Below, piece after piece: positions 9,592 through 27,318 of a stretch of DNA of 27,603 nt. The notes under the pieces were generated by a model that was given only the letters and a program-made list of their open reading frames with translations, ran no database searches and was not told the DNA's origin. Made by a program: the position numbers and the translations under genes. Numbering within the stretch: the first letter of the stretch is position 1; every line of letters begins with the position of its first letter. The DNA is from a virus: positions 1 through 27,603 of the IMG/VR virus record IMGVR_UViG_3300033156_000794; one strand, written 5' to 3'.

Positions 9592-10349
9592 TTTTGCTTC
9601 TTGTTTTTTGACTCTATTTTCTCTAAGAGCTCATCAAATTCTTTTTGTGTTGGATTTACCTTCTGTTTAAGATAGTCTCTCCATCTCTCTTTTCTTAGAA
9701 AAGTAGCTGGATGTTTTATGTAACTTTCTTCAATTTTTTTATTTTTTACTTCTTCATGATAATTTCTAGCACAAATAATAACCTGTTCTTGCTCACCTTT
9801 TTTTAGTTTATTAAATACATCAAAAGCCACTCTCTTTTCTTTCTTTCTTGGATACTCCTGCCAAAATTTCTCAAAAAGTAGGGGATATATATTATCTTTA
9901 CTTAACTTATCTTTACTTAACTTAGAGACAACCGATGGTTTACCATTGACAACCAGTGGTTTACCAGTGGTATCCATTTTTCCATCTGACCCCTGTAAAA
10001 AAGGCAAAAATCGCTTTGGTTTGGGAAATTCTGCTCTTCTTTTTCTATCAGGTCTAAATTTCTGATGCTCTTCAAACTTTGTAATTTCGAGGTATTTTTC
10101 GCTATCCTCCTCGTAAATTCGTATAAGACCCACCTTAAAAAGCTCTTCAAGTCTCCGTTTTACAATAGCATGCGTGATTTTTCGACGTGGATAGACGACT
10201 CCTCTTAAAATTTTAGGGTCGGCATGATACCGACCGTAATCATCAGTCATCACAAGTAATCTGTAGTATAAATTTTCAGCACCCTCAGACACAGAATTTA
10301 TCTTTTTACTTAAAATAATAACCCTATCTAACATCCTTCCCCTAGCCAT
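9588..10349 (-). CDS. Phage replication initiator-like protein (winged helix plus DnaT/DnaD-like C-terminus)
   Basis: 253 residues. The N-terminal region (1-100: GAENLYYRLLVMTDDYGRYH, RRLEELFKVGLIRIYEED) is a winged-helix-like DNA-binding domain. After a low-complexity linker (about 118-150) comes FWQEYPRKKEKRVAFDVFNK and later YIKHPATFLRKERWRDYL, the C-terminal pattern typical of phage replication proteins that load DnaB. The next gene is the DnaB-like helicase, which supports the role. The linker is encoded by tandem and near-palindromic repeats (9892-9971) that may form the origin. The C-terminus is Lys-rich. Confidence 0.82.
   Translation of the reverse strand: MARGRMLDRVIILSKKINSVSEGAENLYYRLLVMTDDYGRYHADPKILRGVVYPRRKITHAIVKRRLEELFKVGLIRIYEEDSEKYLEITKFEEHQKFRPDRKRRAEFPKPKRFLPFLQGSDGKMDTTGKPLVVNGKPSVVSKLSKDKLSKDNIYPLLFEKFWQEYPRKKEKRVAFDVFNKLKKGEQEQVIICARNYHEEVKNKKIEESYIKHPATFLRKERWRDYLKQKVNPTQKEFDELLEKIESKNKKQK
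9892..9971. repeat. Repeat cluster inside the initiator gene, candidate replication origin
   Basis: TTATCTTTACTTAAC occurs twice in perfect tandem (9892-9906 and 9907-9921). TGGTTTACCA, a near-palindrome, occurs twice 21 bases apart (9936-9945 and 9957-9966), the second flanked by direct copies of ACCAGTGGT (9952-9960 and 9963-9971). The repeats fall exactly in the unstructured linker between the two domains of the initiator. In lambda and relatives the origin iterons lie inside the initiator gene. Repeats are seen; the origin role is inference. Confidence 0.5.
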
Positions 10350-10351
10350 TT

Positions 10352-10798
10352 TTATATTCCTTCAAATTCTAATTCAAAATTAAGAAACTTTATTAATTTA
10401 TCCCTATCAACAAACTTAATTTTTTTAGATATTAAACACTCTATTTCTGTTTTATTATCATAAGGATATTTTCCTCTTACTAAAAAAATATCAAATTTAT
10501 AATCTATAAAATAAGGCTTTGGTACTTTATTTAAAAAAATAAATACTTTTGGCAAAAAATCCCGAAACAATGCTTTTTGTCCTTTTTTCATAGACTCATT
10601 TATATTTTTAGATTCAATTAAGCGCAGCCTCTTAAGACGAACCTTCTGAATTATTAAATCTATATTTATAGCTGTCATTTTATGACTGCAATTTTTGTCA
10701 ATAAACTTATTTAAAGCTGAACCATAATATTTAAGCTCATTTTCGTTTTTATACCATTTTTCCTCTGGTACATGATCAAGTAAGCTTAGTTGATTCAT
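10352..10798 (-). CDS. Putative PD-(D/E)XK endonuclease-like protein
   Basis: 148 residues. INIDLIIQKVRLKRLRLIESK (44-64) reads as the core of a small PD-(D/E)XK fold, with Asp47, Glu62 and Lys64 in the places of the catalytic D and ExK; NESMKKGQK follows. The first 30 residues are charged and the C-terminus is Lys/Phe-rich. It overlaps the methyltransferase gene by 23 bases, so the two are likely translated together. A phage modification/nuclease pair or a nicking enzyme for replication is possible. No clear family name can be given. Confidence 0.55.
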   Translation of the reverse strand: MNQLSLLDHVPEEKWYKNENELKYYGSALNKFIDKNCSHKMTAINIDLIIQKVRLKRLRLIESKNINESMKKGQKALFRDFLPKVFIFLNKVPKPYFIDYKFDIFLVRGKYPYDNKTEIECLISKKIKFVDRDKLIKFLNFELEFEGI

Positions 10799-11774
10799 AT
10801 TCTTTTAACCTTTTTTCCATAGTTTTAATATTTTCTTCTCTATCATCTATTGCTAAAACTCTTCTTTTTAATTTATGACAAGCAACTGGTAATGTTCCGC
10901 TTCCTGCGAATGGGTCTAAAATTAAATCATTTGGCTTGGTAAAGTTTTTTATGAGAACCTTAATCTCATCCTCTGCTTGCTGCCATGGATGTCCTTCTTT
11001 TTCTCTACCAGTTCCTTCAATTACGTCTTCAATTTGATTGTTTATTCTTTTAAATGGTTCTTTTTGATATATCAGAATCGGTTTATAACTACAAAAAATA
11101 TTTCTTGGATTTATTAATTGTTTAACTCCAGTATGTAATATTATAAATTGCCAGTAATAAATGAGGTTCTTATCAAATATTTTAAGCACTTCATTTAGAT
11201 TTAAAATTCCACTATAAGTGATTAGAAAACCACTGGGCTTTAATACTTTCTTTGCAATCAGAGATAAATCTTTCCAATCTTTTAGATATTCTTTAGAATA
11301 TGGGGGGTCTGTTATTATCGCATCAATGGAGCCTGGGAGGATTTTTTTGGATTGAGTCTGGAATTTTCCTTTCCAAATTTCAACAGTTTCAGGTAGTGGA
11401 AGACTATCAAATTCTTTTTCTTTTAACTTATTTTCATCATCTATTTTCTGCTTTTTTTCTGTTTTTTCTAATTTTCTTATCAAAAAAACTGCTGAATCTA
11501 TTGAAGTTACAGCCAAATCGGAATTCGAATTCCGATTTAATATTTTATGTCTTTTGTAAATATATGTATATTTTCGAGCCTGCCTTTCTCCAAAATCTAA
11601 ATTTTTATTAATCCAATCTATCCACTCACCATGTTTTAATTTAGCTTTTTCTTGAATCAATAACTCACCTATTCTTATTCCCTTATTCAAAGCATCATAA
11701 AACCCTTGCTGAATCTCTTTATGTAACCGATTGATTTCATAAATGTTATTTCTAACAATCTCAGCTTTACTCAT
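10776..11774 (-). CDS. DUF3102-DNA methyltransferase fusion (N6-adenine or N4-cytosine type)
   Basis: 332 residues. Residues 10-80 (IYEINRLHKEIQQGFYDALN, GEWIDWINKNLDFGERQARKY) match DUF3102, a helical DNA-binding-like domain of phage and plasmid proteins. Residues 130-330 form an amino-methyltransferase with motif IV TDPPYS (155-160) before motif I DPFAGSGT (287-294), the beta-class order, and HPWQQ (262-266) before motif I. Probably it methylates A-N6 or C-N4 in a target sequence and protects phage DNA. The linker (80-87) is encoded by a perfect 24-base palindrome. AAGGAG lies seven bases before the ATG, just after the terminator-like end of a structured leader. Confidence 0.86.
   Translation of the reverse strand: MSKAEIVRNNIYEINRLHKEIQQGFYDALNKGIRIGELLIQEKAKLKHGEWIDWINKNLDFGERQARKYTYIYKRHKILNRNSNSDLAVTSIDSAVFLIRKLEKTEKKQKIDDENKLKEKEFDSLPLPETVEIWKGKFQTQSKKILPGSIDAIITDPPYSKEYLKDWKDLSLIAKKVLKPSGFLITYSGILNLNEVLKIFDKNLIYYWQFIILHTGVKQLINPRNIFCSYKPILIYQKEPFKRINNQIEDVIEGTGREKEGHPWQQAEDEIKVLIKNFTKPNDLILDPFAGSGTLPVACHKLKRRVLAIDDREENIKTMEKRLKEYESTKLT
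11515..11538. repeat. Perfect 24-base palindrome inside the methyltransferase gene
   Basis: Bases 11515-11538 read AAATCGGAATTC followed by its exact reverse complement, giving two GAATTC sites eight bases apart. It encodes the NRNSNSDL linker between the DUF3102 and methyltransferase domains. A palindrome of this length by chance in coding DNA is rare. It could be a protein-binding site, a recombination scar or a cruciform. Confidence 0.8.
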
Positions 11775-11889
11775 CTATAGGCTCCTTATTAATAAAAAGA
11801 AGCCCCAGCACAACCTTTACTCGGCAAGGTAAAATGGGTATCTCTGAATAGAGATAGATTGTGTCTGGGGCTTTGTTTTCAATATTCAT
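11767..11889 (-). CDS. Possible 40-residue leader peptide or small protein
   Basis: An ATG at 11889, with AAGGA four bases upstream, opens 40 codons ending at 11767, overlapping the methyltransferase start by eight bases. The N-terminus (MNIENKAPDTIYLYSE) resembles starts of small phage proteins with a KAPxTIYL pattern. The rest is hydrophobic and basic (CRVKVVLGLLFINKEP). The frame runs through both inverted repeats and the terminator-like hairpin, so its translation would alter their folding. It could be a regulatory leader peptide or a real small protein. Confidence 0.45.
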   Translation of the reverse strand: MNIENKAPDTIYLYSEIPILPCRVKVVLGLLFINKEPIDE

Positions 11890-11911
11890 TTTTCCTTGCC
11901 GAGTTTGTCAT
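11790..11911 (-). promoter_or_regulatory. Structured RNA leader with two interleaved long stems
   Basis: Reading the minus strand from the predicted start near 11911: arm B' (11903-11887, CTCGGCAAGGAAAAATG) pairs with B (11836-11820) over 17 positions with one mismatch. Arm A' (11873-11859) pairs with A (11813-11800) over 14 pairs with one bulged A. A small perfect 7-pair hairpin (11856-11839) sits between. The order B'-A'-hairpin-B-A is interleaved, so both stems together would make an H-type pseudoknot. The second stem is followed by CTTTTTATT, as in an intrinsic terminator, 20 bases before the methyltransferase start. Pairing is seen directly; attenuation is inference. Confidence 0.6.
11793..11873 (-). 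terminator. Terminator-like hairpin in the methyltransferase leader
   Basis: Stem AAGCCCCAGACACAA (11873-11859) with TTGTGCTGGGGCTT (11813-11800), then CTTTTTATT. The stem is strong and G/C-rich at its base, but the loop (about 45 bases) is long and holds another hairpin and arm B. It may act conditionally. Confidence 0.5.
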
Positions 11912-11917
11912 ACCTCA

Positions 11918-11947
11918 ATTATAAAAAACTGAATTGCGCTTTGTCAA
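11918..11947 (-). promoter_or_regulatory. Sigma-70-type promoter for the replication/modification operon
   Basis: On the minus strand, TTGACA (11947-11942), an 18-base spacer and TATAAT (11923-11918), both hexamers perfect. The expected start is near 11911, directly before the structured leader and the methyltransferase gene. Confidence 0.8.
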
Positions 11948-11956
11948 GAACTTTTT

Positions 11957-12029
11957 TTATAAGAGAGAGCCACCAGCCTGAAAGCAAAAGGAGGAACAAA
12001 GGGAGGATCGACTGACAGCTCTCTCATAA
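11957..12029 (-). repeat. Inverted repeat with CCTCC-rich loop after the Cys-rich gene
   Basis: Arms 12029-12018 (TTATGAGAGAGC) and 11970-11957 (GCTCTCTCTTATAA) pair over 12 bases with a two-base bulge. The 47-base loop carries CCTCC twice on the minus strand (GATCCTCCCTTTG, TTCCTCCTTTTG), matching the anti-Shine-Dalgarno core. No T-run follows the stem, so it is not a plain terminator. It lies just after a gene stop and before the next promoter. Confidence 0.55.
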
Positions 12030-12033
12030 GCTT

Positions 12034-12240
12034 CTATGTCTTAATCTTGATTTTGTGCGGCGGTATCTTGATCTTGTGCGGTATTGAACCAATATTTATC
12101 CTGCAATGTTCAAGTTCTCCTCTTATACCATTCATCTGCATTGCAATTTCCTTAAATGAACACCTCTCTAAATCCTTCAACCAGAGAGCACAATCCTCAC
12201 AACACAATGCATCTTTTGTAAATGGACAAAGATTTCTCAT
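12034..12240 (-). CDS. Small Cys-rich protein
   Basis: 68 residues. The ATG at 12240 is chosen because GGAGG precedes it and it overlaps the previous stop as ATGA. CPFTKDALCCEDCALWLKDL then RCSF gives five Cys in a CxnCCxxC...C arrangement seen in small phage proteins and probably binding zinc. The C-terminus repeats PHKIKI twice, from a short DNA duplication near 12040-12080. Function unknown. Confidence 0.62.
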   Translation of the reverse strand: MRNLCPFTKDALCCEDCALWLKDLERCSFKEIAMQMNGIRGELEHCRINIGSIPHKIKIPPHKIKIKT

Positions 12241-12695
12241 TGTTTTCCTCCAATACCCAAGCATTCATCACTGACAACAGCCCTCCTTACCGTCTCAGTT
12301 TTCCATTCAATCTTGCAGTTTGGCATGAGCTTCGGATGGTAGACGATAACTTCAATTTCAACGAATCTTGATTCTTCTCTAAGAAAATCATAAGCCTTTA
12401 AAAATATCAGCTTGCCTTCATCATTAACATGGGCAAATCTCTCCAATTTTAAACCAGGAAAAGCCGACTCAATTAACTTACAAACCAGCTTGAACTCACC
12501 TGAATCAACCTCTTTTTTATTTCTTACATCCCCTTTCCAGATTGATAGATTGAAGCCTACATCATTGATATCAATATTCCAACCCATAGGAAGAGCACAT
12601 TCAATTTTGTCAGCAATCTCTTTACAAAGCTCAATTCTCTTTAGATACATATCATATCTTTCTTTAGCTCTTTTTTTAGCTTCTGCATAATTCAT
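12237..12695 (-). CDS. Hypothetical protein between the nuclease and Cys-rich genes
   Basis: 152 residues, unrecognised. The N-terminal helix is NYAEAKKRAKERYDMYLKRI. It then has GWNIDINDVGFNLSIWKGDV and a beta-rich second half (EFKLVCKLIESAFP, FVEIEVIVYHPKL, CKIEWKTETV). GGAGGTGAGTC precedes the start, and ATGA overlaps couple it on both sides. It is probably part of the recombination operon by position; the function is not visible. Confidence 0.62.
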   Translation of the reverse strand: MNYAEAKKRAKERYDMYLKRIELCKEIADKIECALPMGWNIDINDVGFNLSIWKGDVRNKKEVDSGEFKLVCKLIESAFPGLKLERFAHVNDEGKLIFLKAYDFLREESRFVEIEVIVYHPKLMPNCKIEWKTETVRRAVVSDECLGIGGKQ

Positions 12696-13681
12696 GACTC
12701 ACCTCCAAGCTTTTTAATAACAGTCCTAAATGCTTCTCTCTTCTGAGCGAACTCTTTTTTCACATCATCCGGTACTTTGTAAAATGTAGTTTCATATCTT
12801 TTTGATTCAATGAGAAAATCACCGACTACAGCATTCTTGCCTCTGAACATAGTCTTGATTTCTTTGTCAATAGCCTGATACTCTTCAGCGGCAGTCTTCA
12901 ACTCTTCTCTTCTCTGAAGCTTCTCGACTAAATCTTCATCTGAGATGATATCAAAGCCTTCGCCAAAGTCTTTGTCTGGGAAGCAATGGGTAAGAGCGAA
13001 ATCGCATGATGTACAGATGTCTTTGTACTGAGGTTCAGGTATTACGCCTTTCTCTGCATTTATATTTGCTCTTTCTGCTCTCTTGAGCAGCTCTTCAGCA
13101 TAGTCATAATCAAGGTTCATAACCCAAAACAAAAACCTGCCGCTCACCTTGTCATAGAAAATCCAGAGCCCATATTCAACACCTTTCTGAAGCATATAGA
13201 TCATCAACTGAGCCGGATACATTCTCACCCAGTGATACTTTGATTTTGTTAGCGGTATGCCTTGAGTCTTATGCTGAACGATTGACCTGAACACATTCGG
13301 TGAGCACGCCTTGTGCTCTGCTGGGATCTCAATCTTCTTTCCATCCATAGTGATCCAGGCAATACCATCAGTCCTACCAGAGATTCGATACTTATGCCAT
13401 CTATAATACTGAGCAGCAGGCTGAATCGGCAGTCCAGCTTGGTTCAAGAAAGTAAGATTCGGCAGCTCGACAACGTTACCAGTCCTGAAGAGCTGCTTCT
13501 TGTCAGGCGTCAGTCTTGGTCTGAGCTCACCTTTTAGCCTGCAAAGAGCATGATATGTATCACAATCAACACCCAAGTCAGAGGCTCTATTTGTATCTCT
13601 ACTGACAGAGTCGGTGATTTCAGAAAGTATGTGTTTCTGCAGTTTTTCCTCAAGCATAGATTCTATTTTCTCAATATTCAT
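12692..13681 (-). CDS. Cas4/RecB-like Fe-S nuclease (PD-(D/E)XK superfamily)
   Basis: 329 residues. Core motifs are ISGRTDGIAW (100-109, Asp105), IPAEHKAC (119-126, Glu122-x-Lys124) and YPAQLMIYML (155-164, a QxxxY motif), the active-site set of the RecB/AddB/Cas4 nucleases. Cys47 (YHALC) together with Cys223, Cys226 and Cys233 (DICTSCDFALTHC) are placed as the four 4Fe-4S ligands of Cas4 and AddB. Such phage enzymes usually process DNA ends for recombination. The upstream gene is a putative annealing protein, overlapping by four bases, which fits an exonuclease-annealase pair. The C-terminal 90 residues form a charged helix region. Confidence 0.8.
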   Translation of the reverse strand: MNIEKIESMLEEKLQKHILSEITDSVSRDTNRASDLGVDCDTYHALCRLKGELRPRLTPDKKQLFRTGNVVELPNLTFLNQAGLPIQPAAQYYRWHKYRISGRTDGIAWITMDGKKIEIPAEHKACSPNVFRSIVQHKTQGIPLTKSKYHWVRMYPAQLMIYMLQKGVEYGLWIFYDKVSGRFLFWVMNLDYDYAEELLKRAERANINAEKGVIPEPQYKDICTSCDFALTHCFPDKDFGEGFDIISDEDLVEKLQRREELKTAAEEYQAIDKEIKTMFRGKNAVVGDFLIESKRYETTFYKVPDDVKKEFAQKREAFRTVIKKLGGES

Positions 13682-14559
13682 TGCTTCTCCTCACTTCCTT
13701 CAAAAGCTTTACCAAAATAATCTTCATACTCTTTGACTGCTCTACCATAGGTTGCATCAATCCACTTGTCGCTCTTCAAATCCTCAAGCTTCTCTGCTTT
13801 GAATGTCTTCTTGCCTACGGTGAAGCTGCTGAATTTAGTGAGCTTCGAAAGAGCTTCTTTCTCATCACCTGCAACTAACTCAAGACAGATGTCCCAAAGC
13901 TTGTTTCTTCTTTTCAATGCTTCCTCCGACAGCTTTCTCTCTTCTTTTCTTTTGCCAGCCCTGAACTTTACTCTTGCAATCTTCCCGATTTCAATCCCCG
14001 CTGCCTTCAGCTCATCCTCAGTGATATTGACAAGCCCAGCAAGCCGTTTGATAAGCCGGTTGTAGAGATTCGTCACGGCTTTTTTTCTAATCATGTTCAT
14101 GTCAACATCTTCAATCGGCAGCAGCTTTCCGTTTACAGTGCCGAAAAACTTGTCTCTCTGGCTGCACGTGCCGATGTCTTCAACATAGCGATTCAGCTTT
14201 TTTGAGAGCGCTTGGCCATGAGCAACGAACTGATAATAGCGGCCTTTCTTGTCCTCATGCCATTCAAGCTTTGGTGTCTCTGACTTGATATGAATCCCCC
14301 AGGCTATAGCAATCTTTTCAGCTCCTGAGTCCATGAGGTAGAGAGAGGCATCCTGAAAGAGCCAGTCTTTGTAGTTGGTAAGGGACAAAGATAAGGTTCT
14401 CACCTTCTTGAAGAACTGAATGTTTTGCTCTACTTGCTCAATCTGCTGGGTAATGTTGATAATGCTTTCTTCTTCCGGTACAGAGACAGCCGGCATCTCA
14501 CCTTCACCATTGAGCTGCTGCAGCTCTTGACTTTTTTGATTCTTTTCATTATCTTTCAA
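13678..14559 (-). CDS. Putative single-strand annealing recombinase
   Basis: 293 residues, TTG start at 14559 with AGGAGG five bases upstream. After an acidic, Gln-rich N-terminus come YKDWLFQDASLYLMDSGAEK (63-82), a beta-rich middle (YYQFVAHGQALSKKL) and EDIGTCSQRDKFFG (127-140). Then DMNMIRKKAVTNLYNRLIKR (153-172) and LVNITEDELKAAGI follow. This pattern of a damaged-sugar-like beta core followed by K-A-x-T-N-x-x-x-R and a LGL/ITEEEL segment recurs in phage Rad52/Sak/RecT-like recombination proteins. Its partner gene is a Cas4-like nuclease. The assignment to a specific annealase family is uncertain; context carries much of the weight. Confidence 0.6.
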   Translation of the reverse strand: MKDNEKNQKSQELQQLNGEGEMPAVSVPEEESIINITQQIEQVEQNIQFFKKVRTLSLSLTNYKDWLFQDASLYLMDSGAEKIAIAWGIHIKSETPKLEWHEDKKGRYYQFVAHGQALSKKLNRYVEDIGTCSQRDKFFGTVNGKLLPIEDVDMNMIRKKAVTNLYNRLIKRLAGLVNITEDELKAAGIEIGKIARVKFRAGKRKEERKLSEEALKRRNKLWDICLELVAGDEKEALSKLTKFSSFTVGKKTFKAEKLEDLKSDKWIDATYGRAVKEYEDYFGKAFEGSEEKQ

Positions 14560-14573
14560 AGTAACCTCCTTTT

Positions 14574-14621
14574 GCCCTGCATAACTCCTAAAGAAATACT
14601 AAGGCAGGGCTTTATTTTTTT
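14574..14621 (+). terminator. Hairpin with T-run between GIY-YIG and annealase genes
   Basis: GCCCTGC (14574-14580) and GCAGGGC (14604-14610) form a perfect 7-pair stem with a 23-base loop, followed on the plus strand by TTTATTTTTTT (14611-14621). This looks like an intrinsic terminator in the plus direction, where no gene is known. On the minus strand it sits just before the ribosome site of the annealase gene, so it may instead shape that leader. Confidence 0.4.
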
Positions 14622-15031
14622 AATTTCATCTTTCTAAGTTTCTGATAATATTTATTATTTAGTAAAGACTTATTGTATCTAATTGCATTTCTTGAAACAA
14701 TAAATTTATTATTTTTGGGTCTAATTCGGTGTATTAATTCCTTTTCTTTAAATTCTGCAAGTTCCCGATTGTTAAATCTTTTTATTTTTATTTTAGTTAT
14801 AACTTCATCATATTGTTTAAGGTGCTGCAATACCCTTTTTCCTATATTAGATGAAACGCCGATATAAAATATTTCATCATGAGAATAAAGGGCGTAAAGA
14901 CCAACAACACAAATATTTTCTAATATTATTTCATCCTTAGGGATTAATAACCATTTATTAAAGGGAATTAGCTCATTGATTTTTCTTCTAATTTCTTCTG
15001 AATATTCTTTTAGTTGATTATAAATTTCCAT
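14612..15031 (-). CDS. GIY-YIG endonuclease
   Basis: 139 residues. GLYALY (44-49) and FYIGVSSNIGKRVLQHL (55-71) are the GIY and YIG strands plus the catalytic Arg region (Arg66). Glu98 in FKEKELIHRIRPKNNKF and the following Asn complete the motif set. An N-terminal 40-residue helical extension precedes the domain. Free-standing enzymes of this type occur in phages as homing or recombination nucleases. It sits between the XRE regulator and the annealase gene and is followed by a hairpin. Confidence 0.83.
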   Translation of the reverse strand: MEIYNQLKEYSEEIRRKINELIPFNKWLLIPKDEIILENICVVGLYALYSHDEIFYIGVSSNIGKRVLQHLKQYDEVITKIKIKRFNNRELAEFKEKELIHRIRPKNNKFIVSRNAIRYNKSLLNNKYYQKLRKMKLKK

Positions 15032-15034
15032 TTA

Positions 15035-15328
15035 TTAACTTCCTAATCTATTCAATTTTTCATTGAGCTTATCAATCTCTTTTTTAATCTTTAATATTTC
15101 CGCCTCATCTGGCTTAATCAATCCAAGAAGTCGGCCTACAATAATCGCATTATCATCAGAAGGTTCAACAATACCTTTTTCCCAATTTAATAGAGTTCGA
15201 TACGTAATGCCGCATTCTTTAGCAATGCTATACTTCTTCAAACCTTTGCTGATTAACAGCTTTTTGAAATTAGAGCCTTTTAAACGGCTTTTTAGGAGCT
15301 TTAAGTCTGCACCATTTATATCAAGCAT
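15035..15328 (-). CDS. XRE-type helix-turn-helix regulator
   Basis: 97 residues. YSIAKECGITYRTLLNWEKG (33-52) is a Cro/CI-type helix-turn-helix, followed by IVGRLLGLIKPDE and a C-terminal coiled coil (ILKIKKEIDKLNEKLNRLG, 78-96) that probably dimerises it. GGAGG lies six bases before the ATG. The promoter in front contains a symmetric element over its -10 box, so autoregulation is likely. It heads the recombination operon. Confidence 0.8.
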   Translation of the reverse strand: MLDINGADLKLLKSRLKGSNFKKLLISKGLKKYSIAKECGITYRTLLNWEKGIVEPSDDNAIIVGRLLGLIKPDEAEILKIKKEIDKLNEKLNRLGS

Positions 15329-15371
15329 TTTTACCTCCTAGCTTCGGTTTTTATATATGTTTCATACTCTA

Positions 15372-15407
15372 TAATAGATATTATCAGAAACTATTGTGCC
15401 TTGTCAA
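15372..15407 (-). promoter_or_regulatory. Promoter of the XRE regulator with overlapping symmetric element
   Basis: On the minus strand, TTGACA (15407-15402), an 18-base spacer and TAATAT (15383-15378). TAATAGATATTA (15372-15383) is symmetric around its centre (TAATA, two bases, TATTA) and overlaps the -10 box. GTTTC and GAAAC elements lie on either side. The arrangement suits repressor binding by the gene's own product, which is inference. Confidence 0.65.
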
Positions 15408-15445
15408 GAAAGATTTTCAATTAATTAACTTAAATTTAAGGATCT

Positions 15446-15640
15446 TCACCCAACATCTTCAAGACTAACTTTATTGAGCTTATTAAGATATCCTTTTAAT
15501 ATCGTTCTTACTAGTGAGCTCTTGCTGCGGTCTGTCTTTTTAGCCAGCTCATTCAGCTGCTGATCGTACTCAGGCTCAATCTCGAAGTTAACTATAACCT
15601 TGCCCCGGGATGTTAATCTTTTTTGGTTTCCAGTTCTCAT
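15446..15640 (-). CDS. Ribbon-helix-helix DNA-binding regulator
   Basis: 64 residues from the ATG at 15640, chosen because AGGAGG lies six bases upstream; a longer frame reaches 15688 but would start upstream of the transcription start. KVIVNFEIEPEYDQQLNELA (14-33) gives the ribbon and first helix, and DRSKSSLVRTILKGYL the second helix of a MetJ/Arc/CopG-type fold. Such proteins bind short repeated operators as dimers or tetramers. Its promoter shares a 16-base box with the divergent plus-strand promoter, making this protein the obvious candidate to bind both. Confidence 0.78.
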   Translation of the reverse strand: MRTGNQKRLTSRGKVIVNFEIEPEYDQQLNELAKKTDRSKSSLVRTILKGYLNKLNKVSLEDVG

Positions 15641-15650
15641 GTTTAACCTC

Positions 15651-15666
15651 CTCACTAATAATATAA
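15651..15666 (-). promoter_or_regulatory. Copy 1 of the shared 16-base box (regulator side)
   Basis: Minus-strand TTATATTATTAGTGAG, identical to the copy at 15828-15843 on the plus strand. It covers the -10 hexamer and the expected transcription start of the ribbon-helix-helix gene. Confidence 0.7.
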
Positions 15667-15688
15667 TGAAAGTTATTTCAAAAGTCAA
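15660..15688 (-). promoter_or_regulatory. Promoter of the ribbon-helix-helix regulator
   Basis: Minus-strand TTGACT (15688-15683), a 17-base spacer and TATATT (15665-15660), just upstream of the AGGAGG of the regulator gene. Confidence 0.72.
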
Positions 15689-15805
15689 GAAATTATTTTA
15701 ATAAAAAAGCATTTCTTAGAAGGTTAGTCAAAAAGGTTAAGCAAGTCACCCCAAAAGATGATATAAATTTCACCCCTTATTTCTTTAAATATTTTTAATT
15801 TTTAC

Positions 15806-15834
15806 TTGACAAACAAGGTTGAAAGGCTTATATT
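15806..15834 (+). promoter_or_regulatory. Promoter of the plus-strand operon
   Basis: TTGACA (15806-15811), a 17-base spacer and TATATT (15829-15834), preceded by an AT-rich tract (15777-15805) that may act as an UP element. The expected start is near 15841. In the region before it, AGGTTA (15721, 15734) and TCACCCC (15746, 15770) each occur twice. Confidence 0.78.
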
Positions 15835-15843
15835 ATTAGTGAG
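15828..15843 (+). promoter_or_regulatory. Copy 2 of the shared 16-base box (operon side)
   Basis: TTATATTATTAGTGAG, identical to the minus-strand copy at 15651-15666, again covering the -10 and the transcription start. The two copies face away from each other. Confidence 0.7.
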
Positions 15844-15867
15844 ATGAGAAAACAAAAGGAGGAAGAA

Positions 15868-16266
15868 ATGAAAGCTCAAGAATTAGACTTTGAAGACTTT
15901 GTGGCTGCTAGCCAGTTAGGGCGTGTTCATGCCTATGGTACAAGTTGGTGGTATGATACCGCCTCTAAACTTTGGTGGTGTGACGATCCACAAAAGACGG
16001 GTATATATTGTGGAGTAAAATTTAAACAATTAGACAATCCACAATTTATGAAGGCAATTGGTTTAAAAAGAGAAGAGGAAGGAATGAGATATCTAAAAGT
16101 ATATTTAGGAGGTCAGGAACTTTACATTTGGCCGTTACCTTTAGATGAAGAAGAAAAAAGAATGGTAAAAACATTTATTCAAAAAAATCTATGCCCAAAA
16201 TATCATTTTGAGTCTCATTATAGCTTTAAGGTAGTTGATGAGAAGAGTCCAGGATTTTTTAAATAA
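15868..16266 (+). CDS. First gene of the plus-strand operon, unrecognised
   Basis: 132 residues from the ATG at 15868, chosen because AGGAGG lies six bases upstream and the promoter start leaves no leader for the ATG at 15844. The protein is rich in Trp and Tyr in its first half (GTSWWYDTASKLWWCDD), with CGVKFKQLDNPQF and later LYIWPLPLDEEEKRMV. No membrane segment or known motif. As the first gene of a separately promoted early-type operon, it could be a host-takeover or anti-defence protein, which is inference. Confidence 0.72.
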   Translation: MKAQELDFEDFVAASQLGRVHAYGTSWWYDTASKLWWCDDPQKTGIYCGVKFKQLDNPQFMKAIGLKREEEGMRYLKVYLGGQELYIWPLPLDEEEKRMVKTFIQKNLCPKYHFESHYSFKVVDEKSPGFFK

Positions 16267-16278
16267 AGGGAGGAGAGA

Positions 16279-16650
16279 ATGAGCCTTCAGTTAAGCGGCA
16301 AAAAAGTAAACAGGGGAAAAGAAATAATGATTAGAGAAGATGCCTATTATCCTGGTCGACGTGATGAAAGATGGACGGAACAATTTGTAGGCTCAGAAAT
16401 CACAAGAGAAGTAATATCAATATATCATTGTTCAGATTTTCCAATAGATGAATTCAAGAGACAAAAAATTTGCTGTTGGTATTTTTTCCCAACTAAAATA
16501 AATGAAAATATATATGGAGAGCCAGAACATGTATATGAAATTGTTCTTCCCCCTTCCACTAGAATTGAGTTTTATGGGAATGGAACGGAAGTAAGAATAG
16601 ATTTAGATAACCCTAAGATTAGAATATATGAATTACAAATAAAGGAATAG
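16279..16650 (+). CDS. Second gene of the plus-strand operon, possible ADP-ribosyltransferase-like fold
   Basis: 123 residues. GGAGGAGAG precedes the ATG. VISIYHCSDFPIDEFKRQ (46-63), then CCWYFFPTKI, IYGEPEHVYEIVLPPSTRIE (79-98) and EVRIDLDNP are beta-rich. The YHCSD...YFF...YG...VYEV pattern loosely recalls small phage proteins with an ART-like fold (a YHGT-type loop, then a strand ending in Phe/Tyr). The similarity is only suggestive, and no catalytic Glu can be fixed. Otherwise unrecognised. Confidence 0.68.
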   Translation: MSLQLSGKKVNRGKEIMIREDAYYPGRRDERWTEQFVGSEITREVISIYHCSDFPIDEFKRQKICCWYFFPTKINENIYGEPEHVYEIVLPPSTRIEFYGNGTEVRIDLDNPKIRIYELQIKE

Positions 16651-16662
16651 AAGGAGGAAAGA

Positions 16663-16866
16663 ATGAGGGAAGATTTTTTAGGGCTTATTCAAGGATATTA
16701 TTGGCATGTCCGAATGAGTAATGGAGCAAGATTTAGCATCTGGACGCCATATGATCTAACAAGAAAAGAGGCAAAGAAAAAACTATTAAAGAGTGCTAAT
16801 GGTGATTATATTGAGGTTTACAAAAGCCAAGACATAAAATCAATATGGCGGACAAGAAAAATATAA
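16663..16866 (+). CDS. Third gene of the plus-strand operon, small protein
   Basis: 67 residues, unrecognised. AAGGAGG lies before the ATG. The first half is aromatic (LGLIQGYYWHVRMSNGARFS), followed by a basic helix (LTRKEAKKKLLKSANGDYIE) and a basic end (SIWRTRKI). No membrane segment. Confidence 0.66.
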   Translation: MREDFLGLIQGYYWHVRMSNGARFSIWTPYDLTRKEAKKKLLKSANGDYIEVYKSQDIKSIWRTRKI

Positions 16867-16876
16867 GGAGCTAAAA

Positions 16877-17227
16877 ATGAGCTGGAGAAAACATAAAAGC
16901 CATAGAGCTGAAACCATAGCAGTCAAAAAAGCTCTAGCAGAAGCTGGTATCAAGGCATCTGTTAGACATGACACAGGCACTGCGTGGGCATGGTTAGAAA
17001 TTAATATCGGGCCAGATAAAAGGAAACACCAGAAAGTAAAAGATGGCTATGTGGTAGAGATGACATTAGAAGAAGCAGCCAAGCAGCCATATTATTTACC
17101 ATGTGTCGCTGGCTGCAAAGCTTGTGAAGAGGCAAGAAAGCTAAGAAGAAAAGTTCTTGATATAGCCAAGAAAGTAACCGGCCGTCATGGTGAATATGAT
17201 GGTAAGATCGACATTATATCTCAATGA
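16877..17227 (+). CDS. Fourth gene of the plus-strand operon, DNA-associated domain-like protein
   Basis: 116 residues. ETIAVKKALAEAGIKASVRH (12-31) followed by DTGTAWAWLEINIG, and VTGRHGEYDGKIDI (100-113), are reminiscent of the small polyvalent-protein-associated domain (LPD29-like) found in phage and plasmid proteins. CVAGCKAC (76-83) adds three Cys. AAGGAGC precedes the ATG. A DNA-related or anti-restriction role would be speculation. Confidence 0.68.
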   Translation: MSWRKHKSHRAETIAVKKALAEAGIKASVRHDTGTAWAWLEINIGPDKRKHQKVKDGYVVEMTLEEAAKQPYYLPCVAGCKACEEARKLRRKVLDIAKKVTGRHGEYDGKIDIISQ

Positions 17228-17251
17228 TTATAATTTCAAAGGGAGGATTTC

Positions 17252-17494
17252 ATGAATAATTTTCATTATGGTTTAAGGTATGTCCTGGATCATTCAGAAA
17301 AAGAGATTCAGGATACAGTTAAAATGCTTGCAAAGAGAAATAGGGTGGCTAGAGAAGAAGTATTGGAAAAGGCAAGCATGCAAAAGCTGAAAAGGCAGCT
17401 AAGAAAAGAGCTAAATACAGCATTCGGCAAAGCTATTGAAAAAGAGCTTGGCCGTAGATTTAATCGGCTTTACAGGCTTAGAATGAAATCATAA
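17252..17494 (+). CDS. Fifth gene of the plus-strand operon, basic helical protein
   Basis: 80 residues, unrecognised. Almost wholly helical and very basic (MLAKRNRVAREEVLEKASMQ, KLKRQLRKELNTAFGKAIEK), ending GRRFNRLYRLRMKS. Nucleic-acid binding is plausible from charge. GGGAGG precedes the ATG. Confidence 0.66.
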   Translation: MNNFHYGLRYVLDHSEKEIQDTVKMLAKRNRVAREEVLEKASMQKLKRQLRKELNTAFGKAIEKELGRRFNRLYRLRMKS

Positions 17495-17506
17495 AGGAGA
17501 CTATTA

Positions 17507-17671
17507 ATGAAAAAAGATATCTTCAAACGTGATGGCAAAAGCTATATATTCGTTGGTTTTTTTGGTATGAAATCAAAAATCTATGGTAGAGGCAAAGAGA
17601 GGATTCTTGTTGAGGATGATAGAGTATTGGTACATTACTCAGATCCAAAAGCCAGAAGAGTTAATATTTAG
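17507..17671 (+). CDS. Sixth gene of the plus-strand operon, small basic protein
   Basis: 54 residues from the ATG at 17507, with AAGGAGA seven bases upstream. Sequence MKKDIFKRDGKSYIFVGFFG, then GRGKERILVEDDRVLVHYSD and ARRVNI. It is a short beta-rich protein without a known family. Its stop overlaps the stop of the convergent minus-strand gene by four bases (17668-17671), leaving no room for an intergenic terminator. Confidence 0.62.
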   Translation: MKKDIFKRDGKSYIFVGFFGMKSKIYGRGKERILVEDDRVLVHYSDPKARRVNI

Positions 17672-18699
17672 CTTTTTTCATACTTTGATAAGACTTCTGA
17701 AGCTATTTCCAAATACTTATAGTAAGGATTTCCTTCTGCATCTTCACAATTATCTGAGCCAAAACCTAGTGTACGAAAACCATAGTAACAGACAAGAGAA
17801 GCACCATGCTCAATTGATTTTTCAAAAATAAATTTAACTCCTGATAATCCTAACTCTCTTCTATCAAAAAACTCATTCCTTCCTATAGGCTTTTTATAAC
17901 TCTTATAATCAAGAATTGAGTCATTGTCCTCATGAGCAGGATACGGCCAGTGTCTGTGTACTTGAATAATGCTGACAATATCATACAGCCCTTTTTTCTT
18001 GGCATAATCCGCATATTTCTCACCGCCAGCACCAAAAGCACCACCAGAGACAATGAGACCTTGATTTCTGAGATTCTTAGCAATGCTGATTGCTCTATCA
18101 ACATCGTCTTCCGCATAGAGCTCGTTCCAACATTCGTAGATTATATTTTTCAAATCTTTCGTCACTTCAATAGTCGCTTCTATATTGCCTAAATCTCTAA
18201 CACTGTCTCTCAAGGTCAGCTCAACGATAACACTTTTCTCATACATTCTTTCACAGAAACTTCTCACCAGGCTTGGAATGTTGCAAATGTCCGTCCTCAG
18301 ATAATTCAGACCGTATTTGTGAAATTCTCTCTCAGCCCAGGTTAAACCATAGTCTTGACCGCACCGCTTCCATGCATAGCCCTCTTGTCCTGTTTCAAGA
18401 CAAAGAGCTTCTCGTCTCCATACACCAACACCTAAAAACTGCTCTCTCCCACCGTCTAGAAAATAGAGTTTATCATCCTGGATTGTAAGCCTAGGTGGAT
18501 CTGGTTCATTTATCTGCTCTCTTATAGCATCGGTTAGCTGCTCAATCCTTTCTGCTCTCTGGCTTATCTTCTCTAGCCTTTTATCGGTCATGGGTTTATT
18601 CTTATTGTCCTGATTTCTTATCCTATCAGAAAAGGTTTTAATTCTCTGGGTATTAGAATCAATATATTCAAGATTTTTTAGTATAACTTTCTTATCCAT
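17668..18699 (-). CDS. Tail-associated clan GH-A-like glycoside hydrolase
   Basis: 343 residues from the ATG at 18699 (TGATG overlap with the fibre stop). Residues 1-65 form a charged coiled coil. From 75 on a TIM-barrel pattern follows: YFLDGGREQFLGVGVWR (79-95), GLNYLRTDI, VIVELTLRD, IIYECWNEL (186-194) with the Asn-Glu acid/base pair of GH5-like enzymes (Glu193), VHRHW (247-251), KPIGRNEFFD (270-279) with a candidate nucleophile (Glu276), and LVCYYGFRTLGFGSD. The order NE, HxH, E fits clan GH-A. It probably cleaves a host surface polysaccharide while attached to the tail. The last gene of the tail operon. Confidence 0.7.
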   Translation of the reverse strand: MDKKVILKNLEYIDSNTQRIKTFSDRIRNQDNKNKPMTDKRLEKISQRAERIEQLTDAIREQINEPDPPRLTIQDDKLYFLDGGREQFLGVGVWRREALCLETGQEGYAWKRCGQDYGLTWAEREFHKYGLNYLRTDICNIPSLVRSFCERMYEKSVIVELTLRDSVRDLGNIEATIEVTKDLKNIIYECWNELYAEDDVDRAISIAKNLRNQGLIVSGGAFGAGGEKYADYAKKKGLYDIVSIIQVHRHWPYPAHEDNDSILDYKSYKKPIGRNEFFDRRELGLSGVKFIFEKSIEHGASLVCYYGFRTLGFGSDNCEDAEGNPYYKYLEIASEVLSKYEKS

Positions 18700-20525
18700 C
18701 AACTCGTCACTTGAACGGCATGATATCTAAACTCATCGACGTCAAAAGATGCTGCTCCAGAGGCTACAATTTCAAAGCAATAATCTCCATCTTCATCAAG
18801 CGGCTGCCATCCGGTCATCCTGTTTGATTTATCATTGGCCTTGCCGGATGGGTCATTATAATATACCCATTGAGCCGCCGCACTCTTACTTAGCTTCAAC
18901 AAGGTGTCATTATTTTGAGAAGCTGAATCATGGACTTCAGAGGTCACGACTATTGACTTCGCACCTTTCGGCAGCATTGCATCTGTATCAGCTTCAAGAT
19001 TGATAGTTGTCGGGCCCTGTGAGCCTTGCCCGGTATAGCTTTCTAACTGATTGCTTGTTATAGCTTTCTCCAACCAGATAACTTCATTGTCTCTGAACTG
19101 ATAATTGCCTTCCCCTATTATAGCAGAAAGTACCGTCATTGGCTGGGAGATATAGACGATTGTTGAACCATCAATGTTGGGAGCTGCTTTGAATTTCAAA
19201 GCAAACGGGATTCCTTCTGTAGAAATAGCTCCAAAAGTATGTGGAAATTCTAGCCATTCCCATCCACCTCCGCCAGTATGCTCAATACCAGTAGCAATCC
19301 AACCATCCTGATAAAAATAAAGCTCAACATGACTCGCCGTTGAAGTTTTTACCCAAACCCCCTCACAAACTGTCCTTGAATCAAATTGTTTATAAAACTC
19401 TTCCTTTGTACTCTTCCCCCCATCATTCCAATATAAATATTTATTCGCTGCCGTTGGAACTACTTTTAAAGCATAAAAAGAACCACCCTTTGTATTTACT
19501 CCAGAATGTTCTCGATATAAATCAAGCTCAATAGATTTTACCCACCCATCAGGAGCATGAGTTGCCTCTGTACAACATGGTGTTATTTCGTAGCAAGAGA
19601 AATTACGAACCTGAAAATTATTACCGCCGCCAGCTAGCCAGCCGACAATCCCAACCTTTGAGTTATCACTGCTTTGGGTTGCTTCAAATGTCCAAGATAC
19701 TTTAGTCCAATTTGCACCAGTTGTTTTTCTAGGTTCAATGACAGACATGCCTAAAGAATCATGATAATAGGCATTGACTTCAACCCCTGCTTCAGTACCA
19801 TCTTTGATTTCGCACTCGACCTTATAAATTTTGCCTTCTTCAAATTCAACATTAGCAATATAAATTATTTGAGACATTGCCGTCCTTACTATCTCATAAT
19901 GGTCAACGTTGAAATTAAGATTGCAATCTATAGTATTCCAGTCTGCTGTATCGTCGTTGTTCATCGGGTCATTAGCAACTCCTATTGTTTTGTCCCCATC
20001 TACCGTCAGCATATTAGCGCCGCCCACTGAGCCATCTACATTTTCGTTGTCTTGGAATGTTCCAGTCACTGCTCCAAGCTCAATAGAGCCTGCTGCATTG
20101 CCGCCGCCCCAAGTGCCTCCAGTCACTGTGACAGAGATGACTTTTCCTACAGCTCCAGAGGTTGCTCCTGTGAGCGTCTCTCCAACTTGTGGCTCTACTG
20201 AGCCAGAGTCAAAGTTAAGAGTGCCGAGTCCTTTGTTTGTATCACTCTGTGACCAGACTCCGAAGCCTGAATTGATTAAGAGATTTATACCTCTCTCTTT
20301 CGGTACAACTTCTGAATCGAGCAGATACCAAGAACCAGAATGCCTGTAATAGATTCTACCATCGTCACTATCAACTGCAATCATGCCGTCCTGAGCTTGA
20401 GTCAGATTCGTTCTCGGGTCTGACATGTACCAGTTGTTTTTGAGGTAGTTGATTAATGTATCGCAGAAAGCTTCATAGCCTTCGTAATCAGCACCTTTGA
20501 GTAGGTCATCTCTTGATGCTGCCAT
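18699..20525 (-). CDS. Tail fibre or receptor-binding protein with carbohydrate-binding-like modules
   Basis: 608 residues. An N-terminal tail-binding region (1-75) is followed by INLLINSGFGVWSQSD (80-95), a hallmark opening of fibre beta-sandwich modules. A Gly/Thr-rich domain with VGETLTGATSGAVGKVISVT (about 114-133) and two CBM-like sandwiches follow (about 185-320 and 330-490, with WTKVSWTFEATQSSDN and GVWVKTSTASHVELYFYQDG). The C-terminal domain (about 490-608) ends DVDEFRYHAVQVTS. Probably it binds host glycans next to the GH-like enzyme encoded directly downstream. AGGAGGAGG precedes the ATG. Confidence 0.8.
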   Translation of the reverse strand: MAASRDDLLKGADYEGYEAFCDTLINYLKNNWYMSDPRTNLTQAQDGMIAVDSDDGRIYYRHSGSWYLLDSEVVPKERGINLLINSGFGVWSQSDTNKGLGTLNFDSGSVEPQVGETLTGATSGAVGKVISVTVTGGTWGGGNAAGSIELGAVTGTFQDNENVDGSVGGANMLTVDGDKTIGVANDPMNNDDTADWNTIDCNLNFNVDHYEIVRTAMSQIIYIANVEFEEGKIYKVECEIKDGTEAGVEVNAYYHDSLGMSVIEPRKTTGANWTKVSWTFEATQSSDNSKVGIVGWLAGGGNNFQVRNFSCYEITPCCTEATHAPDGWVKSIELDLYREHSGVNTKGGSFYALKVVPTAANKYLYWNDGGKSTKEEFYKQFDSRTVCEGVWVKTSTASHVELYFYQDGWIATGIEHTGGGGWEWLEFPHTFGAISTEGIPFALKFKAAPNIDGSTIVYISQPMTVLSAIIGEGNYQFRDNEVIWLEKAITSNQLESYTGQGSQGPTTINLEADTDAMLPKGAKSIVVTSEVHDSASQNNDTLLKLSKSAAAQWVYYNDPSGKANDKSNRMTGWQPLDEDGDYCFEIVASGAASFDVDEFRYHAVQVTS

Positions 20526-20537
20526 CGTAGCCTCCTC

Positions 20538-23264
20538 CTATTGACATTTGCATATTTTCTTCAACGGGTCACCGCCCGGAAGCGATTCATCGTCACAGCT
20601 TCCGATATAACCAAAAACCTTCATCCATTGAGAAGCGTTCTCGTAATTGTGCTCCAATTCAGAACACCGCCCAATGATAAAGCATTGACCAACCAGCCAC
20701 TGCAAGTCCGATGCTTTCACTCCGATTGTCATATTTTGAAAATCGTATGTCAAGCTTGTTACATAGTAATAATGCTGCTCTTCTCCTTGTCCTGTGGGAC
20801 TCAGTCCAAATGTATCCTGAAGTATGAAGGTATCAAAAATCTCAAGCTCATCAATGAAATCAATCGGCAGTGTAAAGCTGACAACTCTATTGCCGTATGC
20901 CAAACGCTGCAAATCTTCACCTGCTCTGAGTATTGCAAAGTCTTCACAGGATACACACGGGTACTCCCAAGTCTCATAGTTCTCAATCTCACTCTCAAAA
21001 TCGGTTATGGAAGCATCTGACTCAAACTCTCTAGCACCGCCATAAACACCAGCAGCCGGATAGAAATCCCAACAGACTTTGATTCTATTCACTGCATCTC
21101 TAAGATTGAACTCAATCGTTGGTGCTTCAATACAATCTGTCTGAGCAATGATTGTTTTGTCGGTGTCAAATGTTGTGAGGTCTTTTCTCCCGAAATGAAG
21201 CTTGCCTTCTCTATCAGGCCATATCTTGATTCCGAAGCTGAAGAGCAGTTTTTGAAGCACTGAAGAAGCATCCTCCAGCTCTGTGAGCGCTAACTTACCG
21301 CATTCATCCCAGCCATTGTCTTCAAACAAGTCAGCAACATCGTCTAAAGAATCTGTATCAATATAATCTATCGGCACTTCAGCAAGATAAACCAGAAAGA
21401 AGCCAAGAACATAAGCAGGATTCTGCACATACCCATTGCTTGAGTTCCAAGCTGCCAGGCTATAACCCTCAGCATTATATGTTATTTTTTTATCGCCTTG
21501 ACTAGAATTGAATGTAATGAATGTCCTACCTTCAGCATCATTTGAAACTGTATAATTTGCAGGATTGACAAGTACGTTATCAGAATAGACTTGAAGCACA
21601 GAGTTCAATGGATGAGCGGCTGCGATGTACTTATTGGCTGTGGTATCAATACAGAGCGCCTCAATAGCTCCGAGGTTCTCACCTGTAGTCAGGCTGTGAA
21701 GCCCTAGCACTTCAGGGATTGCTTTGCCCACAGCGTTCTCATGAGCATTTGGCCACTCTTCAGTTGTTACAATATAGAACGGCATCTTCTTTCTCAAGTA
21801 CTTCTGAGTAATATCCTTCAGAGTGGCTTTGAATGTCGGCCCGGATAAAACATAATCATCTACGATACCCTGAAAATATCTTTCTTTCCAGCCATGCGGT
21901 TCATCTGTCCAGCCGAAATATAATTTAACCGGCTGGTTCTTGCAGTAGCCCTGAGCTAAAAGTTTTTGAAACTCTGAGTCATTGCTTGCCAGCTCAACAT
22001 CTAAATCAGAAACTTGGAACATACCAGTAAAGTCATCAATAGAGCGTGTAACTGATGCAGCGCTTAGGATGCGCCCCTCATAGAATCTGTCAGTTGCCCT
22101 CAGATCAATCGGTGCGTAGTACTTCCAGACCAGTTCCCCAGCTATTTTCCAAGCCCATTCCCAAGTGAAATAAGGTGCTTTTGATTCAGCTTCACCGACG
22201 ATTATCGTGAACATACCATAAGCATTATCCACGCCAGGGCTCATCTTACCTGTCTCATCTGTGAAAAATTCACCAGCATAGCTCTCTACATCTCCGACGT
22301 CAGGAACACCTATCTTGACCAGTTTAATTTTATAAGTGCCTTTCTTCATGGCAGGCATTGATGGAATTGTTATCTGTGTATCGGAGTCGACTGAAAAATC
22401 GCCACCAATTAAGGTGAGCTCATAATCGCCCTGGCCTTCCTGGCCTTCAAATATTATTTTTTCTACATCCGAATCCCATGTTTTAGGCTGATTGTCAGAA
22501 CAGCGTTCAGTGCTGTTTAGCTCTGCATCACTTTGGTCAAATCCAAGGCCAGTAAGGATTAGCTCATCTCCTCCATTTTCTGAAAATCTTAGCCTTGAGA
22601 GAGAATTAACTACTGGATTGAAATAATTTACAGTGATTTTTGTTGCCGTAAAACTGCATTTGAAAAATTCGCCATTGCCAAATGGATAAGATATATTATA
22701 GTTCCAAATATTAAACGCAAGGCCCAGCCTAAAGATATATTCTTGTTTATTATTGCTTACCGCATACGCTAAAAAAGCCGGCCACCAGATTGTTGTTTTA
22801 TAGGGAAAATCTGCCACATTGATATCAAGATAATCGCTTGGAGAGCCAGCATGCCAGGGAGAATAGTCATCCCACGGATTCACTCCATCATAATATTTTC
22901 CTGTGACTTTATCTGTATCCCATTGTTTTGGGGAGGATAAATGCTGAATGTTTTTGCCATATAGTTTGAAGCTTCCTACTCCGGCTGAGTTGTCTATAAG
23001 ATTAAGCTCGATATCAACGCCCACATCTACAATCTCATCGGCACTTGATACAAGCTCAAAATCGTTGGTAGCGATGATTATCGGATACCAATACCAGTAC
23101 TTAGGGCTAGCCCCATCATTGCCACCGCCGGCTATTCCTTCTTCTATATGGTCATCAGTCCAACGGTCGATAGGAGCATAGTAAGGGGGGCCGACTAAAT
23201 TATCAGAATTTTGAGCAAGAGTCCTGACTATGATTGCAGTCCATTCTCTATGTGGTAAAGTCAT
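20538..23264 (-). CDS. Large tail-tip or baseplate hub protein with IPT/TIG-like domain
   Basis: 908 residues. The first 200 residues are a beta-rich discoidin-like region. Then comes ELILTGLGFDQSD... QITIPSMPAMKKGTYKIKLV (about 235-320), matching the IPT/TIG immunoglobulin-like fold. The second half (about 385-900) contains RSIDDFTGMFQVSDLDVELA, AVGKAIPEVLGLH and LLFSFGIKIWPDREGKLHFG, the pattern of long siphovirus tail-tip proteins. It lies between the distal tail-like protein and the fibre and likely forms the hub that carries both. Confidence 0.75.
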   Translation of the reverse strand: MTLPHREWTAIIVRTLAQNSDNLVGPPYYAPIDRWTDDHIEEGIAGGGNDGASPKYWYWYPIIIATNDFELVSSADEIVDVGVDIELNLIDNSAGVGSFKLYGKNIQHLSSPKQWDTDKVTGKYYDGVNPWDDYSPWHAGSPSDYLDINVADFPYKTTIWWPAFLAYAVSNNKQEYIFRLGLAFNIWNYNISYPFGNGEFFKCSFTATKITVNYFNPVVNSLSRLRFSENGGDELILTGLGFDQSDAELNSTERCSDNQPKTWDSDVEKIIFEGQEGQGDYELTLIGGDFSVDSDTQITIPSMPAMKKGTYKIKLVKIGVPDVGDVESYAGEFFTDETGKMSPGVDNAYGMFTIIVGEAESKAPYFTWEWAWKIAGELVWKYYAPIDLRATDRFYEGRILSAASVTRSIDDFTGMFQVSDLDVELASNDSEFQKLLAQGYCKNQPVKLYFGWTDEPHGWKERYFQGIVDDYVLSGPTFKATLKDITQKYLRKKMPFYIVTTEEWPNAHENAVGKAIPEVLGLHSLTTGENLGAIEALCIDTTANKYIAAAHPLNSVLQVYSDNVLVNPANYTVSNDAEGRTFITFNSSQGDKKITYNAEGYSLAAWNSSNGYVQNPAYVLGFFLVYLAEVPIDYIDTDSLDDVADLFEDNGWDECGKLALTELEDASSVLQKLLFSFGIKIWPDREGKLHFGRKDLTTFDTDKTIIAQTDCIEAPTIEFNLRDAVNRIKVCWDFYPAAGVYGGAREFESDASITDFESEIENYETWEYPCVSCEDFAILRAGEDLQRLAYGNRVVSFTLPIDFIDELEIFDTFILQDTFGLSPTGQGEEQHYYYVTSLTYDFQNMTIGVKASDLQWLVGQCFIIGRCSELEHNYENASQWMKVFGYIGSCDDESLPGGDPLKKICKCQ

Positions 23265-23265
23265 T

Positions 23266-24129
23266 TTAACCTAAAAGCCTTACTCCTCTAGTTAGCGTCC
23301 TCAATTCTATCTTCCAATCGTAGAGCTCACCGCATGTGCCCTTTGCAATCTGAGTGCCAAAGCCAGACATATTTGTCATGTAAACATAATAACAAAATTT
23401 ATAATGGTCATCTGGGATGAATATGAATTTACCATTTGCTCTTTTGACATTACTCAGAAACTTTCTCATTTCACTGACCTGAGCTGGATTATTAATGTTT
23501 TTAATGACAATACTGAATTCTTCTGCTTCTGAATAGTAATTTGACCAGATTTGACCATAGTATGTTGTCCGAGTGCCTTCAAAGAAAATCGGGCCGTCTG
23601 AACGGCCAGGTTGCAGTCTTGCATTGCTGAACGACTGAAGATTACCCAAGAACAGCTCACCGATTTCTATATAACCATCATCGTTATCAGCATCAATTAT
23701 CTCAAGTAGCCAATATTGATGAGAACCGCAGTCGAATCTTTTGCATAAATTCGGGAAGTCTTCAACCAGTCTGTTCTTCAGGTTGACTTCACAAGCCGGC
23801 CCGCCTGAGCCTACAGACCACCAGTCACAAGCTCCTGATTGACCTGGACATCTAGCATCACAAGGCTTGAGCTTCAGTTCATCCCCTACATCAGATAATA
23901 AAAGATTATGATTGAAAATGCCTATAAAATCGGGTGAAACATCAGTACCAAAATCAATACAAATCCACTCTGGTATAGCTCCCGATGTTGTACCGATACC
24001 GGTGAATCTGAATGGCTTCGATGGTTTTACATTATATAGATTCTCAAGAACATAGAGGTCATCCTCAGAGCTTGAATATAAATCAACTTCAGAGTTAATC
24101 AAGTTATTAATTGCATACCTTATTGCCAT
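23266..24129 (-). CDS. Distal tail-like protein with discoidin-like N-terminus
   Basis: 287 residues. The N-terminal part (TGIGTTSGAIPEWICIDFGT, DFIGIFNHNLLL) and IEIGELFLGN (155-164) form a beta-sandwich typical of siphovirus tail proteins downstream of the tape measure. The second half (EEFSIVIKNINNPAQVSEMR, KFIFIPDDHYKFCYYVYM) resembles the C-terminal part of such tail proteins. Nine Cys occur in the middle (CDARCPGQSGACDWW). It starts one base into the tape-measure stop (TAATG) with GGAG upstream. The role as the distal tail ring is inferred from position. Confidence 0.72.
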   Translation of the reverse strand: MAIRYAINNLINSEVDLYSSSEDDLYVLENLYNVKPSKPFRFTGIGTTSGAIPEWICIDFGTDVSPDFIGIFNHNLLLSDVGDELKLKPCDARCPGQSGACDWWSVGSGGPACEVNLKNRLVEDFPNLCKRFDCGSHQYWLLEIIDADNDDGYIEIGELFLGNLQSFSNARLQPGRSDGPIFFEGTRTTYYGQIWSNYYSEAEEFSIVIKNINNPAQVSEMRKFLSNVKRANGKFIFIPDDHYKFCYYVYMTNMSGFGTQIAKGTCGELYDWKIELRTLTRGVRLLG

Positions 24130-27315: not shown

Positions 27316-27318
27316 TGA

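Follow-up and report, generated by a model that had tools for sequence, protein, structure and literature searches.

We describe a cassette of six small genes, P1 to P6, at the junction between the tail and replication genes of a probably strictly lytic phage, and we somewhat favor its interpretation as a host-directed accessory operon that is expressed early and serves in either takeover or antidefense. The window, i.e., the whole stretch of 27,603 bases analyzed here (IMG/VR virus record IMGVR_UViG_3300033156_000794, labeled G000 in comparisons), is a tailed-phage fragment and kin of phages from hot seafloor sediment. The comparison set of five phages is completed by IMGVR 3300033141_004106 (G001), 3300021492_000030 (G002), 3300033149_007244 (G003), and 3300033149_003707 (G004). 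The arrangement of the cassette is of a known kind, and its proteins are new.

Six opposing genes between the tail and replication regions

Read on its minus strand, the window has the tape measure and the tail genes first, then a tail-end protein (17668-18702, minus strand), a RecT-like protein (13678-14559, minus strand), and an exonuclease-like protein (12692-13681, minus strand), followed by a DnaB-type helicase, the lysis genes, and the terminase; gene names in the window were assigned by eye from the sequence, except where a family hit is stated. The cassette (15868-17671, plus strand) has the tail-end gene at one end and the replication side of the window at the other. It had been claimed in an earlier note to be the sole plus-strand operon, and this is indeed the case: there are 37 minus-strand calls, every other credible gene in the 27.6 kb lies on the minus strand, and the two further plus-strand calls have negative codon scores. 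G002 (48.9 kb) has 72 calls on one strand, with the other strand credible only for four cassette genes.

Several other genes of these phages deserve mention. The tail-end protein has a glycosidase-like look and no match in named phages; its N terminus differs in G003 and G002 and is common to the window and the divergent G004, which suggests mosaic exchange among the phages. G002 and G003 carry extra glycosyltransferase-like genes among their tail or head genes. A sulfotransferase-like protein, recognized by eye (window 6693-7385, starting IIGASRSGTNSL), has counterparts in G001, G002, and G003. A full-consensus sigma-70 promoter (TTGACA-18-TATAAT, 12/12) is found at 11918-11947 on the minus strand, upstream of methyltransferase and helicase genes, and G004 has three consecutive methyltransferase-like genes at 18470-21414, each of them kin to the window gene at 10776-11774. 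For the terminase large subunit (window 1-624), the nearest named phages are of the Thermus phage P23-45 type (~39% over 72 residues). Its closest relative lies on a probably misbinned contig of 13.9 kb in the Pacearchaeota metagenome-assembled genome (MAG) Meg22, which comes from a Guaymas Basin core (PMC10290634), and the next is in a Peptococcaceae MAG (48%). Many proteins of a phage contig in a Guaymas Basin Pacearchaeota MAG (L057; JAFCFJ010000013.1) are 85 to 99% identical to those of the window; the contig is probably misbinned but is still a host hint.

The six plus-strand open reading frames (ORFs) of the cassette are spaced by gaps of 10 to 24 nt, and strong Shine-Dalgarno sites, which the earlier note had emphasized, are found ahead of them. 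Their in-frame codon scores, trained on genes other than the six, range from 0.18 to 0.27 versus 0.06 to 0.28 for held-out real genes, with 10 of 10 spurious plus-strand ORFs scoring negative. The dN/dS ratio is 0.05 to 0.19 for residues 1 to 71 of P1 and for P3, P4, and P5, and looser (0.14 to 0.42, where computable) for P6; by this measure, the conserved cassette genes are under purifying selection. Since P2 has no relative with which a dN/dS value could be obtained, the case for it consists of its codon score and ribosome site. We conclude that P1 to P6 are six real genes.

The earlier note had described the cassette proteins as small and without clear families, and our searches bear this out. 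Comparison of P1 to P6 with Pfam, PHROGs, NCBIfam, and PADLOC yielded nothing exceeding chance, as did the search of plasmids with P4. The PDB sequence search with P4 and P2, the protein search of named phages with P1 to P5, the DNA search of named phages with 14000-18700, and the Rfam and tRNA scans recovered no match. P4 and P2 had no relative in 299 genomes of one phylum, a search that had no positive control. Two family labels from the earlier note received no support. The LPD29 profile (PF18847) found no match in any of the five phages, even at an E value of 10, and P4 aligned with one LPD29 protein at a probability of 0.6%; likewise, ART-PolyVal (PF18760) was without a match in the window at an E value of 10. 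In the structure check, the single-sequence model of P2 had a pLDDT of 33, which is too low for judging an ART fold or catalytic triad, and that of P4 had a pLDDT of 56. A weak resemblance of the latter model to PII or ferredoxin-like folds (Z ≤ 3.8) was given no weight.

The control region and the divergent regulator

The cassette is preceded by a sigma-70-type promoter, TTGACA-17-TATATT (15806-15834, plus strand), with 11 of 12 consensus bases, which is the top plus-strand match within 9000-27603. Across the window, G001, G002, and G003, 79% of its positions are invariant versus 43% of those in the spacer (15689-15760) and 9% of the first 33 coding bases. The strong promoter of its own that the earlier note had ascribed to the operon is thus confirmed as a feature conserved across four phages, and a conserved strong promoter region stands ahead of unrelated genes, as in antidefense operons. 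The regulator placed by the same note within the operon is instead its neighbor: a DNA-binding protein does adjoin the cassette, but the Arc-like ribbon-helix-helix (RHH) gene (64 aa; 15446-15640, minus strand) lies outside it and is transcribed divergently, and a regulator inside the operon was accordingly rejected. The RHH protein matches RHH_1 with 23.8 bits (Pfam cutoff, 20.5) as well as Arc/CopG PHROGs, and its gene has a dN/dS ratio of 0.02 to 0.07 in four phages. Its own promoter, TTGACT-17-TATATT (15660-15688, minus strand), is invariant at 69% of positions in the four phages.

A 15-bp element, TATATTATTAGTGAG, occurs free of mismatches at both window promoters (15651-15665, minus strand, at the RHH promoter and 15829-15843, plus strand, at the cassette promoter), where it covers the -10 and start regions; elsewhere it is found with three mismatches at best, and the pair is imperfect in the relatives. 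We infer that it is a candidate operator to which the RHH protein might bind. This regulator resembles the Arc/CopG-type phage repressors in its matches to RHH_1 and Arc-like PHROGs and differs from the characterized ones in that its operator and target genes are predicted.

The divergent promoters, the RHH protein, and a Cro/C1-type helix-turn-helix (HTH) protein at 15035-15328 in the window together resemble a genetic switch, which raises the idea of a cassette belonging to a lysogeny or lysogeny-like switch and expressed, under the control of the RHH and HTH proteins, in the resident state. We consider this very improbable. Gene content varies on that side of the RHH gene which faces the replication genes: the relatives have other genes in place of the HTH gene of the window, with a small CxxC protein there in G001, G003, and G002. 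Moreover, P5 has no relative in bacterial or archaeal genomes, and a search for tyrosine integrases with PF00589 recovered none in any of the five records. Two of these records look circular: the two contig ends of G002 meet within the RecT-like gene, which is then two residues short relative to the window, and G004 has a 114-bp end repeat. As no tyrosine integrase was found, we set lysogeny aside as unlikely for this phage.

An independent promoter next to tail genes might also be expected of moron-like or virion-associated genes that are expressed late, for instance, those for injected or exclusion proteins. Such a role appears improbable, if less so than a switch, because the cassette lies on the strand opposite to all virion genes, its proteins match no virion family, and the gene transcribed divergently from it encodes a replication-side regulator.

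Variable first positions and the core behind them

Comparison of the genes behind the promoter showed that the first position or positions are swapped between phages, whereas P5 and P6, and P4 in three of the phages, stay. The order P1-P2-P3-P4-P5-P6 of the window corresponds to new97-P1short-Zn87-P4-P5-P6-Zn50 in G001, metallohydrolase-P3-P4-P5-P6 in G003, and new159-41aa-P5-P6 in G002. G004 lacks an opposing unit, and P5 is there co-oriented with the other genes. The slot accordingly holds P1 and P2 in the window, a TIGR04338/SprT-like metallohydrolase in G003, and a zinc finger-like protein and other ORFans in G001 and G002. Judging from its HEXXH motif, a TIGR04338 match (E value, 4.8e-11; 42.8 bits against a model cutoff of 90), and a weak SprT-like match, the slot protein of G003 is a zincin-type metallohydrolase. 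A scan of IMG/VR with the promoter pattern returned 34 contigs, among which only G002 and G003 carry related genes in number.

P1 (15868-16266, plus strand; 132 aa) matches over its first 71 aa a short stand-alone gene in G001, which stops just before a Shine-Dalgarno-ATG; the window has lost that stop, so that P1 runs on, and the Shine-Dalgarno-ATG remains internal to it at 16084. P1 therefore appears to have arisen from two small genes by fusion, the remainder after residue 71 being the second. P2 (16279-16650, plus strand; 123 aa) is found only in the window among the five phages and belongs to no family. The leader GAGAAAACAAAAGGAGG is found ahead of two different genes, P1 of the window and P3 of G003, and the slot gene of G003 is preceded by a near copy of it. 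The simplest account of these observations is an exchange at near-identical Shine-Dalgarno leaders, by which slot genes would be swapped through recombination, perhaps performed by the neighboring RecT-like protein and exonuclease.

P1 and P2 are not basic, whereas P3 to P6, with pI values of 9.6 to 10.5, constitute a mostly conserved basic core behind the swappable slot. P3 (16663-16866, plus strand; 67 aa; pI 9.9) has a counterpart of 94% identity in G003 and is missing in G001, G002, and G004; P4 (16877-17227, plus strand; 116 aa; pI 9.6) is retained in G001 and G003; P5 (17252-17494, plus strand; 80 aa; pI 10.5) is retained in all four relatives; and P6 (17507-17671, plus strand; 54 aa; pI 10.1) is retained in G001, G002, and G003. 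Their basic nature, the purifying selection on the core genes, and the location of P5 next to exonuclease and ATPase genes in G004 would all be in keeping with nucleic acid-binding proteins that assist the phage in replication, recombination, or transcription, in which case the genes of the slot would be passengers. We nonetheless regard such helpers as an unlikely explanation: the core proteins match no DNA-binding family, and P3, P4, and P6 are missing in G004, as are P3 and P4 in G002. As both of these phages look complete and lack several core genes, most of the core is dispensable.

At the other end of the cassette, P6 and the tail-end gene converge with a 4-bp overlap, and a scan recovered no terminator at this junction in the window. 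Early and late transcription might interfere with each other there.

Relationship to known host-directed modules

The combination of a conserved promoter, a swapped slot, and a mostly conserved core fits host-interaction genes, and the interpretation of the cassette as a host-directed operon is plausible in light of its anatomy and by analogy with two characterized systems. The takeover module of the Bacillus phage SPO1 comprises 26 mostly small genes with high-expression promoters and ribosome sites, is expressed early, and includes several growth inhibitors (PMC6873191). The cassette is likewise a cluster of small genes (products of 54 to 132 aa) with a strong promoter and ribosome sites; however, it has 6 genes, against the 26 with demonstrated early expression, several of them demonstrated growth inhibitors, in SPO1. 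In archaeal viruses, searches guided by conserved regulatory sequences yielded an anti-CRISPR and an antitoxin protein, and in SIRV2 and the SSV T6 operon, a conserved strong promoter precedes varied small genes of unknown families, with a DNA-binding regulator nearby (PMC11065993). All three features recur in the cassette, with the differences that the archaeal virus genes have TATA/BRE promoters, a winged HTH regulator in the case of Aca8, and some proven functions, whereas the cassette has a sigma-70-type promoter and an RHH protein. A more limited likeness is seen to polyvalent phage proteins, in which, alongside ART and LPD29 domains, a zincin-type metallohydrolase (MPTase) is common (PMC5512222), as in one slot protein of G003; unlike those large, single, injected proteins, the cassette encodes small separate proteins, and the LPD29 and ART-PolyVal profiles are without a match.

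In the control region, sigma-70-type promoters face both ways, toward the RHH gene on the replication side and toward the cassette. On the basis of the above parallels, we suggest that the host RNA polymerase would transcribe the cassette shortly after the phage DNA has entered. Host machinery or defenses might then be the targets of the variable first proteins and of the small basic proteins of the core. Later, the RHH protein could repress both promoters via the shared TATATTATTAGTGAG element, and converging late tail transcription, with no recognizable terminator between, may help silence the cassette. Several considerations weigh against this scenario: slot turnover occurs in neutral or moron genes too, the core is well conserved, which is less typical of arms-race proteins, the relatives have the 15-bp element in imperfect form, and the comparison covers just five phages.

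A more specific and distinctly more tentative proposal is that the slot is reserved as a docking site for antidefense genes, with the promoter, the RHH protein, and the basic core of P4 to P6 forming a platform and counterdefense proteins of unknown families being exchanged at the first positions. If this were true, the control region could serve as a search key for finding inhibitors of unknown defenses in uncultured hosts. More generally, a promoter-marked swap site beside a mostly conserved core provides a comparative handle on phage proteins without an assigned function, and the cassette adds several new protein families for which there is evidence of selection.
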